Part shown: positions 8,906-11,986 of the stretch, one piece after another
How positions within the stretch are numbered: the stretch's first letter is position 1
How the letters are laid out: each line of letters begins with the position of its first letter
From: Aromatoleum toluclasticum ATCC 700605
GTDB taxonomy: Bacteria; Pseudomonadota; Gammaproteobacteria; Burkholderiales; Rhodocyclaceae
Assembly (NCBI RefSeq): GCF_000378245.1
Contig: NZ_KB899493.1
Location: 1 to 64,000, forward strand
Direction of reading: 5' to 3'
Length of the DNA stretch: 64,000 bases
Made by a program: the position numbers and the translations under genes
Notes under the pieces: model-generated
What the model saw: only the letters and a program-made list of their open reading frames with translations
Database searches by the model: none
Told to the model about the DNA's origin: nothing

Positions 8906-10354
8906 ATGGCGGAAGTTAAGTTCTTTGGCGGCGAGAACATCCCGCTCGAAATGCACAAGGTCCGCATCGTCCAGAAACTGACGCTGCCGCCGGTGGAACG
9001 CCGGCTTGCGGCGATCACGGAAGCGGGAAACAACACCTTCCTGCTGCACAACTCGGATGTGTTCATGGACATGCTCACCGACAGCGGTGTGAACGCCATG
9101 AGTGACCAGCAGCAGGCGGCGATGTTCATCGCCGACGACAGCTATGCCGGGAGCGCTACCTACACGCGACTGGCGAACAAGCTGCAGGACATCTTCGGCA
9201 TGACCCACTTCCTGCCCGCCCACCAGGGACGGGCCTGCGAAAACATCCTGTCGCAGGTGCTGGTGTCGAAGGGTTCGGTCGTACCGATGAACTATCACTT
9301 CACGACCACCAAGGCGCACATCACGCTCAACGGCGGCACGGTGGAAGAGCTCGTTGCGGACTCGGGCCTGGAAGTTGTCAGCGTGCATCCGTTCAAAGGC
9401 AATATGGACACCGGCAAACTGCGAGACGTGATCGGCTTGCACGGCGCGGACAAGATTGCCTTCGTGCGCATGGAGGCCGGCACGAACCTCATCGGCGGAC
9501 AACCATTCTCGCTGCAGAACCTCGTCGACATCCGCAAGATCTGCGACGAGCACGGCCTTCTGCTGGTACTGGATGCGAGCCTGCTTGCAGACAACCTGCA
9601 CTTCATCAAGCAGCGCGAGGATGGCTGCAAGACACTCGGCATTCGCGAGATCACGCGCCGGATCGCCGACCAGTGCGACATCATCTATTTCTCGGCGCGC
9701 AAACTCGGGTGCGCCCGCGGCGGCGGCATCTGCATCCGCAGCGAGGAGATGTATCGCCGCATGCGGGGGCTGGTCCCCCTGTATGAAGGCTTCCTCACCT
9801 ACGGCGGCATGTCGGTGCGCGAGATGGAGGCGCTTACCGTCGGGCTGGAAGAGACGATGGACGAGGAGGTGATCAACCAGGGGCCTCAGTTCATCGCCTA
9901 CATGGTGGACGAACTGCAAAAGCGCGACATTCCGGTCATCACGCCGGCGGGCGGACTTGGCTGCCACGTCAACGCGATGAAGTTCGTGGACCACATTCCG
10001 CAGGCCGAATACCCGGCGGGCGCGCTGGCGTCGGCGCTGTATATCGCCAGCGGCATCCGCGGGATGGAGCGCGGAACGCTGTCCGAGCAGCGCGAACCGG
10101 ACGGGCGCGAGATCTTCGCGAACATGGAACTCGTTCGCCTGGCGATGCCGCGGCGAGTGTTCACGCTGTCGCAGGTCAAGTACGCGATCGACCGGCTGGA
10201 GTGGCTGTATGCCCATCGCCGGCTCATCGGCGGCCTCGCGTTCACCGAGGAGCCGGAGATCCTGCGCTTCTTCTACGGCCGCCTGAAGCCGGTGTCGGAC
10301 TGGCAGGAGACCCTCGTCGCGAAATTCCGCGCAGACCTCGGCGACAGCCTCTGA
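8906..10354 (+). CDS. Tyrosine phenol-lyase/tryptophanase-family PLP lyase, divergent
   Basis: 482 residues, fold-type I PLP enzyme of the beta-eliminating lyase family. By comparison from memory it is closer to tyrosine phenol-lyase than to tryptophanase. It keeps the FTTT stretch (132-135), Tyr80 in the SYAGS motif and the Met-Glu-Arg triad (387-389) that marks phenol-lyases. The PLP-binding lysine is Lys266 in SARK. It departs from the family in two places. The conserved arginine after the cofactor aspartate (DATR in phenol-lyase) is Leu226 in DASL, and the residue before the PLP lysine is Arg instead of Lys. A good ribosome-binding site (GGAGGA) precedes the ATG. The real substrate may be tyrosine, tryptophan or another amino acid. 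Confidence 0.75.
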   Translation: MAEVKFFGGENIPLEMHKVRIVQKLTLPPVERRLAAITEAGNNTFLLHNSDVFMDMLTDSGVNAMSDQQQAAMFIADDSYAGSATYTRLANKLQDIFGMTHFLPAHQGRACENILSQVLVSKGSVVPMNYHFTTTKAHITLNGGTVEELVADSGLEVVSVHPFKGNMDTGKLRDVIGLHGADKIAFVRMEAGTNLIGGQPFSLQNLVDIRKICDEHGLLLVLDASLLADNLHFIKQREDGCKTLGIREITRRIADQCDIIYFSARKLGCARGGGICIRSEEMYRRMRGLVPLYEGFLTYGGMSVREMEALTVGLEETMDEEVINQGPQFIAYMVDELQKRDIPVITPAGGLGCHVNAMKFVDHIPQAEYPAGALASALYIASGIRGMERGTLSEQREPDGREIFANMELVRLAMPRRVFTLSQVKYAIDRLEWLYAHRRLIGGLAFTEEPEILRFFYGRLKPVSDWQETLVAKFRADLGDSL

Positions 10355-10398: not shown

Positions 10399-10478
10399 CA
10401 AAAGATCCGGCCCGAGGGAACCGTCCGCAAGGGACGGGGATACGCCGCACAAGGCGTGCAGCCCGCACCGCTTCATCC

Positions 10479-10509
10479 AAAAAAAACGCAGCCCCTGCGG
10501 GACTGCGTT
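10479..10509 (-). terminator. Intrinsic terminator of the candidate small RNA
   Basis: On the minus strand AACGCAG (10509-10503) pairs with CTGCGTT (10491-10485), with an inner CCGC/GGGG stem, and is followed by eight consecutive U residues. No leftward protein gene ends here, which is the main reason to suspect an RNA gene. Confidence 0.8.
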
Positions 10510-10650
10510 AAATCCACACCAAAGGAGGAGGGTGGAGGAGACACCGGTTTGGATCACGAAGCTCAATTGATCCGACTGGTTTCGATTATCCGCAGCCGAA
10601 CTTGGCGTGGCAAGGTTTTTTTGTGCGTCGCACTATAAATGTTTTAATAG
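10479..10650 (-). ncRNA. Candidate FNR/Anr-controlled small RNA with anti-Shine-Dalgarno loop
   Basis: The 528-bp gap between the lyase and osmC genes has no convincing coding region but looks like a leftward RNA gene. On the minus strand there is an AT-rich promoter region (about 10658-10631), a GTGCG-A-CGCAC hairpin (10633-10623), and a hairpin whose arms are CCAAACC (10552-10546) and GGTGTGG (10520-10514, one mismatch). Its loop carries CTCCTCC, then CCTCCTCCTTT, which complements Shine-Dalgarno sequences. An intrinsic terminator follows. An FNR-type box lies upstream. Length would be roughly 140-170 nt. Inference only; no family match is claimed. Confidence 0.45.
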
Positions 10651-10654
10651 AAAG

Positions 10655-10669
10655 ATAAGCGTTGCTTAT
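10655..10669. promoter_or_regulatory. 15-bp palindrome overlapping the candidate sRNA promoter
   Basis: ATAAGC-GTT-GCTTAT is a perfect inverted repeat covering the likely -10 region of the leftward RNA. It could be an operator for a repressor. No known regulator is assigned. Confidence 0.4.
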
Positions 10670-10683
10670 TAAATCTCAACTCA

Positions 10684-10697
10684 TTGACGTATATCAA
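10684..10697. promoter_or_regulatory. FNR/Anr/Dnr-type binding site
   Basis: TTGAC-GTAT-ATCAA differs by one base from the consensus TTGAT-N4-ATCAA. Its centre is about 44 bp upstream of a leftward start predicted from the TTATCT -10 box, near the usual -41.5 activating position. There is no rightward gene for almost 190 bp. Confidence 0.6.
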
Positions 10698-10882: not shown

Positions 10883-11302
10883 ATGGAATGCACGATCAAA
10901 TGGGTCGACGGGATGACCTTTCTTGCCGAGACGGGCACCGGTCACGTCGTTGCGATGGACGGAGCTCCCGAGGCGGGCGGACGCAACCTCGCGCCGCGGC
11001 CGATGGAGATGATGCTGGCAGGTGCCGGCGGATGCACGGCGTTCGACGTCGTGCTGATCCTGCAGCGCGGCCGCCACGACGTCCGCAACTGCGAAGTGAA
11101 GCTCGTGGCGGAACGGGCCGAGACCGATCCCAAGGTGTTCACGCGCATCACCTTCCACTTCACGGTGACCGGCAAGGGGCTGAAGCGCGAGACGGTGGAA
11201 CGCGCGGTACATCTGTCGGCGGAGAAGTACTGCTCCGCCTCGATCATGCTCGCCAAGACGGCGGAGATGGTCCACGAAGTGACGATCATCGACGTGGAGT
11301 AA
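10883..11302 (+). CDS. OsmC-family protein (YhfA-like)
   Basis: 139 residues, OsmC/Ohr fold. Two conserved cysteines, Cys51 (in AGGCTAF) and Cys117 (in EKYCSAS), match the redox pair used by family members against organic hydroperoxides. The GRNLAPRPMEMMLAG segment resembles the YhfA branch, whose physiological role is not settled. The ATG at 10883 follows CGGAGTCAAAG. A TAAAAT at 10824 may be its -10 box. Confidence 0.9.
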   Translation: MECTIKWVDGMTFLAETGTGHVVAMDGAPEAGGRNLAPRPMEMMLAGAGGCTAFDVVLILQRGRHDVRNCEVKLVAERAETDPKVFTRITFHFTVTGKGLKRETVERAVHLSAEKYCSASIMLAKTAEMVHEVTIIDVE

Positions 11303-11368: not shown

Positions 11369-11986
11369 TCAGACCCGGTACGCGGCGGTCGTCATGACCC
11401 GCGCCGCGAGCTTCATCGCGGCCTTCACCGGCCCGGGAAGCTCCTGCGCGCCGAGGCCGATGGCGGTGTCGGCATGGCGCGCTTCGTCAAGCTTCATCTG
11501 CCCGATGATCCCGCGCGACTTGTGGTCCTCGGCCGGCAGCTGAGCGAGATGCCCGTCGAGATGGGCCTCCACCTGACGCTCGGTTTCGGCGAGAAACCCG
11601 AGATTCCAGCGCTCGCCGAGCCGCCCCGCCAGCATCCCCAGCGCCAGCGACCCGCCGTACCACAGGGGATTCAGCAGGCTCTTGCGCCCGCCGAGTTCGG
11701 CAATGCGCTGTTCGGTCCAGGCGAGATGCTCGGTTTCTTCGTTCGAGGCCTGCTCTAGTTCGCGCCGCACGCTGGCGTCGCGCGACATGATGGCCTGCCC
11801 CTGATAGAGGGCCTGGGCGCAGATCTCGCCACAGTGATTGACGCGCATGAGACCGGCAACGTGGTCGCGCTCGGCGTCGCCGAGCAGGGTATCGGGCATG
11901 TCGCCGCCGGGTACGGGGCGCACCGAACGCGCGGGGGCGAACAGGGTGCGCAGGGCCTTGTCGAATTCAACGATGAGCTGATCCAT
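11369..11986 (-). CDS. coq7: Ubiquinone biosynthesis di-iron hydroxylase Coq7
   Basis: 205 residues. It catalyses the last hydroxylation of the quinone ring in ubiquinone synthesis, at the membrane surface. Di-iron ligands are visible as E..H pairs: [38 protein letters not shown] and DEARHA. Ribosome-binding site GAGGAA. It is the last gene of a leftward run, 22 bp after the CNP1 gene. A GC-rich hairpin-like stretch lies between its stop codon and the converging osmC gene. Confidence 0.95.

Follow-up and report, generated by a model that had tools for sequence, protein, structure and literature searches.

Gene neighborhood

The window, by which we mean the whole 64,000-nt stretch of DNA analysed, contains a leftward small RNA (sRNA) gene between two rightward protein-coding genes, with a series of conserved elements upstream of the sRNA:

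8906-10354, plus strand: tryptophanase gene, converging on the sRNA gene
10478..10543, minus strand: sRNA body, RF02278 (cmscan), the short, probably processed form of 66 nt
10479..10509, minus strand: intrinsic terminator, an 11-pair stem (10509-10485) followed by U8 (10486-10479), with compensatory changes
10519..10531, minus strand: anti-Shine-Dalgarno stretch 2, CCTCCTCCTTTGG, in the loop of hairpin 1
10534..10540, minus strand: anti-Shine-Dalgarno stretch 1, CTCCTCC, invariant in 30 of 30 aligned copies
10551..10573, minus strand: leader hairpin GGATC...GATCC, between the predicted start and the sRNA body
10585..10613, minus strand: promoter, with -35 box TTGCCA (10613-10608), a 17-nt spacer, and -10 box GATAAT (10590-10585)
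10620..10636, minus strand: PhaR-type operator ATAGTGCGACGCACAAA, its core (10632-10624) inside the perfect palindrome GTGCGACGCAC
10633..10648, minus strand: conserved A/T block ATTAAAACATTTATAG, within which AT-N-AAAACATTT is invariant in 14 congeners
10655..10669, minus strand: inverted repeat ATAAGC-AAC-GCTTAT, with ATAA and TTAT invariant in 14 congeners
10684..10697, minus strand: FNR box TTGATATACGTCAA, the only match to TTGAY-N4-RTCAA in the 64-kb window
10883-11302, plus strand: OsmC-like gene (PF02566), divergent from the sRNA gene
11369..11986, minus strand: coq7 (NF033656), on the same strand as the sRNA and upstream of it

Read along the minus strand, the order is FNR box, inverted repeat, A/T block, operator, promoter, leader hairpin, anti-Shine-Dalgarno hairpin, and terminator. 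The promoter, our best sigma-70 candidate, agrees with the consensus at 10 of 12 bases, and transcription would be expected to start at about 10580-10577; the ATAAT of the -10 box and the CTTG at the -35 box are invariant in 14 congeners, as is CAGTCGG at the 5′ edge of the leader hairpin. The A/T block has something of the look of an IHF site.

The original prediction began from a strong leftward terminator without a gene in front of it, and this description is accurate: no plausible minus-strand gene lies ahead of the 11-pair stem and U8, and the flanking tryptophanase and OsmC-like genes are both on the plus strand. As a class, terminator-like sites are only modestly in excess (3 found versus 1.2 expected in 2 kb), so the case for an sRNA rests on the family match described below.

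The sRNA is a member of RF02278

The leftward sRNA gene is real and belongs to RF02278 (Betaproteobacteria toxic sRNA). Positions 10543-10478 match the model from 1 to 64 of 64 at 61.4 bits by cmscan (cut-off 50, E 6.6e-10), the sole Rfam match above a curated cut-off in the 64-kb window, and the RNA has two hairpins, the second of which is the intrinsic terminator, together with the conserved C/U seed. It folds at -37.9 kcal/mol (z = -3.0), with 1 of 200 shuffles equally good. The two C/U-rich copies originally placed in a hairpin loop both exist, but only the second lies in the loop, the first sitting at the 5′ edge with some of its bases in the stem; this second CTCCTCC (10530-10524, minus strand) forms, with TTTGG, the perfect complement of CCAAAGGAGGAG. 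A trans-acting sRNA had been proposed that resembled no known RNA: the gene is indeed of the anti-Shine-Dalgarno type, but the supposed novelty is gone, a new sRNA family being rejected on the strength of the RF02278 score. Since the sRNA belongs to a described family, the promoter, not the RNA, is the finding.

Loop and terminator had also been expected to be conserved in relatives, and they are. Covariance searches found RF02278 matches in 17 of 17 genomes of the genus, 113 of 121 sampled genomes of the taxonomic family (90 over the cut-off), and, in the sample of the order, 188 of 300 (of which 114 passed the cut-off). Among 30 aligned copies, which we picked ourselves, two-sided changes occur at 7 of 14 pairs, all of them in the terminator stem, while the seed region is almost invariant; a terminator stem that varies on both sides next to a nearly invariant seed is the pattern expected of a trans-acting RNA. 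A coq7 gene was present in the fetched flank of an RF02278 copy, with the copy following on the same strand, in 89 of the 120 genomes for which longer flanks were retrieved.

The source genome itself has seven RF02278 matches: the window copy, five in an array on contig 21 (L008:3143-6912), and a weak hairpin on contig 9 (L009:3282-3343), which scores 32 bits, under the cut-off, and contains its own AAAGGAG. The contig 21 copies form two groups (of two and three) that flank a lyase of the fumarase/aspartase superfamily (PF00206) and what by eye appears to be a LysR-type regulator. The TTGC-N-GCA palindrome recurs upstream of the copies in this array, and every one of the five is preceded by a PhaR-type site of its own that begins at -38.

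A PhaR-type operator common to the family

The original prediction overlooked the feature that the family has in common, the PhaR-type operator at 10636-10620. The window operator differs at 2 positions in 17 from a published PhaR site, YTKNTGCRNYGCANMAR (PMC12849132); another PhaR site, TGNTGCN3GCAA, has been footprinted (PMC3206438). In the window operator, GTGC and GCAC are invariant in 14 congeners. Taken alone the window operator is unremarkable, the 11-mer core pattern being expected 0.97 times per 64 kb. Within the 200 nt preceding each of 167 copies (130 copies from 90 genomes of the family search, and 37 from the order search), an operator with at most 2 mismatches was found before 145 copies. 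The corresponding counts were 85 of 1670 for shuffles and 23 of 166 for downstream regions, the latter a higher rate than in the shuffles. Control windows far from any sRNA had such a site in 44 of 1308 cases, and 200 permuted palindromes gave a median of 3/188 and a maximum of 91/188. All six copies of the source genome that pass the cut-off have an operator with 1 or 2 mismatches. By start position the 145 sites divide into 36 at -35 to -38, which would overlie a -35 box, 79 at -82 to -114, which belong to copies with a longer leader, and 30 at other places. Among 74 family copies linked to coq7, 17 have the inverted-repeat pattern ATAA-N7-TTAT, for which shuffles average 0.65; its commonest position is 33 nt upstream of the PhaR-type site.

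Elsewhere in the source genome, which encodes PhaR (TIGR01848, 163.6 bits versus a cut-off of 109.45), i) of the 6 phasin-family genes, 4 are preceded by a site with 0-1 mismatch no more than 400 nt from the domain, a distance within which the two weakest phasins have none; ii) ahead of phaR, a short-chain dehydrogenase gene that by its position would be phaB has a site with 0 mismatches in front of it; and iii) a strict operator pattern, TTGCRNYGCANMA, which does not match the window site, occurs 50 times against 23 for the reversed pattern, so that chance may account for roughly half of its matches. The site-bearing phasin-family genes lie on contigs 3, 6, 14, and 2 (L266-L269), each with at least one site; L266 and L269 have two PhaR-type sites 55-57 nt apart.

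An FNR box in fixed register, restricted largely to the genus

The FNR/Anr-like box of the original prediction has held up well: the pattern occurs once in the window where shuffles give 0.08, and the source genome encodes FNR (NF008365, over the cut-off). An exact pattern search finds both FNR box and operator upstream of the window counterpart in 14 of 17 congeners; the span from box to operator is 74 nt in 14 of 14, and the box lies 154-155 nt from the sRNA body, but its distance to the OsmC start ranges over 183-206 nt. Between the half-sites TTGAT and TCAA, which are invariant, eight different N4 centres are found among the 14 boxes. Two of the three remaining congeners have a box with one mismatch to TTGAT-N4-RTCAA, unshifted in G419 and at a shifted place in G422 (TTGACCTATATCAA), each together with a PhaR site of 3 mismatches only; in the third, G412, it was a different RF02278 copy that was inspected.

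FNR-type boxes combined with base-pairing are the logic of FnrS, AniS, and PhrS, and the likeness to these RNAs that was originally suggested appears to extend to logic only, RF02278 being the sole match at curated cut-offs in the window. One could nevertheless suppose that the sRNA is controlled mainly by FNR or Anr, as FnrS is, and that the TGC-N3-GCA palindrome is just part of the promoter. The constant distances from box to operator and sRNA, the varying distance to OsmC, and the presence of FNR in the genome all agree with this; yet just 7 of the 227 family copies have a box upstream (against 0 of 226 downstream regions), boxes being rare outside the genus, the five array copies all have the palindrome and none is among the seven with an FNR box, and the palindrome follows the presence of PhaR (below). 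We consider main control by FNR unlikely at the window copy, and as the main regulator of the RF02278 family FNR was rejected because so few copies have the box.

The position of the box is also unusual. FNR typically activates from -41.5 or -61.5. Here some 112 nt separate the box from the predicted sRNA start, which is no textbook activating position, and FNR bound there could repress. A class II FNR promoter with the box at -41.5 was considered and rejected: by eye there is no good -10 box at the required place, and the -10-like TATCTT would put the FNR box near -46.

The operator tracks the presence of PhaR

PhaR (PF07879) is encoded by 117 of 121 genomes of the family and 203 of 300 of the order. 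We added 60 further copies from the order, our own selection among the matches listed, of which 36 come from PhaR-less genomes; PhaR-less copies derive mostly from whole PhaR-less lineages. An operator with at most 2 mismatches precedes 160 of 188 copies in genomes with PhaR versus 3 of 39 in genomes without it (Fisher p 7e-21 counting copies, a value that overstates independence because the copies are related). The same association can be seen within genera: in g167, PhaR-less G408 has no site and G292 has both PhaR and the site; in g77, PhaR-less G129 has no site, G411 has PhaR and the site, and G259 has PhaR and only a 3-mismatch site.

The exceptions run both ways. No site was found at 2 mismatches for 28 of the 188 copies in PhaR genomes, nor for 7 of these even at 3 mismatches, and in family f43 the PhaR-bearing G403 has no operator upstream of its RF02278 copy. 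Conversely, the three PhaR-less copies with a site are those of G240 (a genome 85 percent complete, with 1 mismatch and an exact core), G012 (96 percent complete, with 1 mismatch and an inexact core), and G162 (100 percent complete, with 2 mismatches and again an inexact core); PhaR of G240 and G012 may be absent just from the assembly. Loci from PhaR-less genomes (L206-L240) show a different RF02278 promoter with a palindrome, ATTAG-N6-CTAAT, near the -10 region; in the order set this palindrome is found in 15 of 38 copies from genomes without PhaR and 0 of 59 with PhaR, and it looks as if another regulator had taken over the promoter.

A regulator other than PhaR might recognize the same TGC-N3-GCA half-sites and control the family; the protein cannot be named from sequence evidence, and the exceptions just listed (28 of 188, and 3 of 39) would suit such a regulator. 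The site, however, also stands at phasin-family genes and at the phaR locus of the source genome, matches the published motifs of both PhaR and PhbF, and is mostly missing where PhaR is missing, and we therefore regard a different regulator as quite improbable. It is very unlikely that the FNR box, which lies between two divergent genes and in the window is 185 nt from the OsmC start, serves the OsmC-like gene rather than the sRNA, and this was rejected because the OsmC distance varies while the operator span is identical in all 14 congeners, and because the 40 nt on the OsmC side of the box are hardly conserved. That a terminator remnant and unrelated boxes have come together by chance without any sRNA can be practically dismissed, the expectations for core and terminators notwithstanding, given the E-value of the RF02278 match, its recurrence across family and order, the covariation, and northern blot evidence for relatives.

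A proposed PhaR-repressed, granule-released sRNA

With family membership, a conserved composite promoter, genes for both PhaR and FNR, and the association of operator with PhaR in hand, we propose that the RF02278 sRNA is repressed by PhaR and released by poly-3-hydroxybutyrate (PHB) granules, with an FNR input added in the genus; we put the probability of this at about 0.78. Binding by PhaR and FNR, the direction of control, transcription of the sRNA, and its targets are all things we infer from sequence. RNA polymerase would start near 10578 and stop at 10479, giving an RNA of about 100 nt which RNase E, by analogy with S17 (below), might trim to about 66 nt. The two C/U stretches would then pair with Shine-Dalgarno sequences and block translation, as shown for S17. 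From a site immediately ahead of the -35 box, PhaR would repress the sRNA; when granules form, PhaR would be drawn off and the sRNA made, and stored carbon would thus feed back on carbon uptake and acyl-CoA metabolism. Granules do sequester PhaR, which can activate as well as repress (PMC12849132). Lying near -112 at a constant spacing from the operator, the FNR box would add an oxygen input, most simply low-oxygen activation, and the A/T block between box and operator perhaps bends the DNA.

Candidate targets were sought as AAAGGAGGA-N3-10-ATG, which occurs at 10 places in the source genome versus 1 for the reversed pattern, although these strings are also plain strong Shine-Dalgarno sequences and so are weak evidence for targets. 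Eight of the 10 places open long frames and two open short frames (68 and 42 aa). The eight long frames are those of an AMP-binding acyl-CoA synthetase-like protein (13 matching nt), a porin, a PQQ alcohol dehydrogenase, an acetyl-CoA hydrolase/transferase, a thiolase, two binding proteins, and a FixJ-like regulator.

We further lean, with some reserve, toward a broader hypothesis in which RF02278 would serve the betaproteobacterial PHB regulon as its RNA arm: most copies would be under PhaR repression, granules would release them, translation of uptake and acyl-CoA functions would be shut down, PhaR would be the repressor postulated for S17, PhaR-less lineages would have replaced the promoter, and FNR would have been added in the genus to integrate carbon and oxygen. 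RF02278 RNAs are widespread, and a PhaR operator offers a direct and testable answer to the question of what raises them; it would tie a broad translational brake to the carbon-storage state, and a composite FNR-PhaR promoter would make a single sRNA the meeting point of oxygen and storage signals. Literature searches on the family, and on PhaR together with small RNAs, yielded no paper linking RF02278 to PhaR among the matches listed, and according to a 2021 review the riboregulation of PHB had yet to be deciphered in Cupriavidus necator.

Comparison with known systems

The window copy is probably the counterpart of S17 of Bordetella pertussis, since coq7 adjoins both S17 (PMC11722255) and RF02278 copies; the two also share a conserved seed region and a long precursor. 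S17 represses BP2158 by pairing near the target start, chiefly through site 1, is Hfq-dependent, and requires RNase E for its short form (PMC11722255). Its promoter (TTGCAT, 17 nt, TACTAT; PMC11722255, preprint) was published without an operator; its authors suppose that some repressor of unknown identity acts on it, and the available text of that paper does not mention FNR (PMC11722255). Growth inhibition of E. coli on overexpression has been reported for Burkholderia RF02278 copies, and S17 lacked similar toxicity (PMC11722255).

As a prospective test, we scanned the genome collection for the TTGCAT-N17-TACTAT geometry together with the seed sequence and found 10 loci, three in Bordetella (B. 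pertussis itself is not among them), five in Achromobacter, and two in metagenome-assembled genomes (MAGs). All 10 continue as TTGCAT[CT]GCACAAA, with CGCACAAA or TGCACAAA after TTGCAT, and in 10 of 10 the -35 box lies within a PhaR-type site, although these are mostly close relatives from two related genera and so amount to fewer than ten independent tests. The two MAG contigs (L196 and L203) have near-identical sRNA promoters under the labels Candidatus Methylopumilus and Burkholderiaceae, and one of them may be wrongly binned.

Other RF02278 relatives are the double-hairpin RNAs ncS03, ncS05, ncS27, and ncS62 of Burkholderia cenocepacia, and Hsnc059, 063, 086, and 107 of Herbaspirillum seropedicae, which share with the window copy the Rfam family, two hairpins, C/U stretches complementary to ribosome-binding sites, and the occurrence of several copies in one genome. 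For the Burkholderia RNAs the regulator is given as unknown in the available text (PMC5688073), whereas the window copy has a PhaR-type operator and an FNR box upstream. Three of these RNAs rise 4.3- to 8-fold in glucose medium, which PhaR control would fit, and the upstream motif common to the double-hairpin RNAs in Figure S3 of the same paper may be the PhaR-type site (PMC5688073).

Precedent for such control exists in alphaproteobacteria, where MmgR of Sinorhizobium meliloti, a PHB-linked sRNA reported to limit phasin levels, is under negative control by AniA (PhaR) (PMC8401924, PMC9049629); here we liken it to the window sRNA by description. A parallel in promoter architecture is phaP1 of Ralstonia eutropha, where PhaR sites occupy the -35 region and the surroundings of the start, the palindromes having one central base as at the sRNA operator (PMC12849132); the phaP1 promoter drives a phasin, whereas the window promoter drives an RNA.
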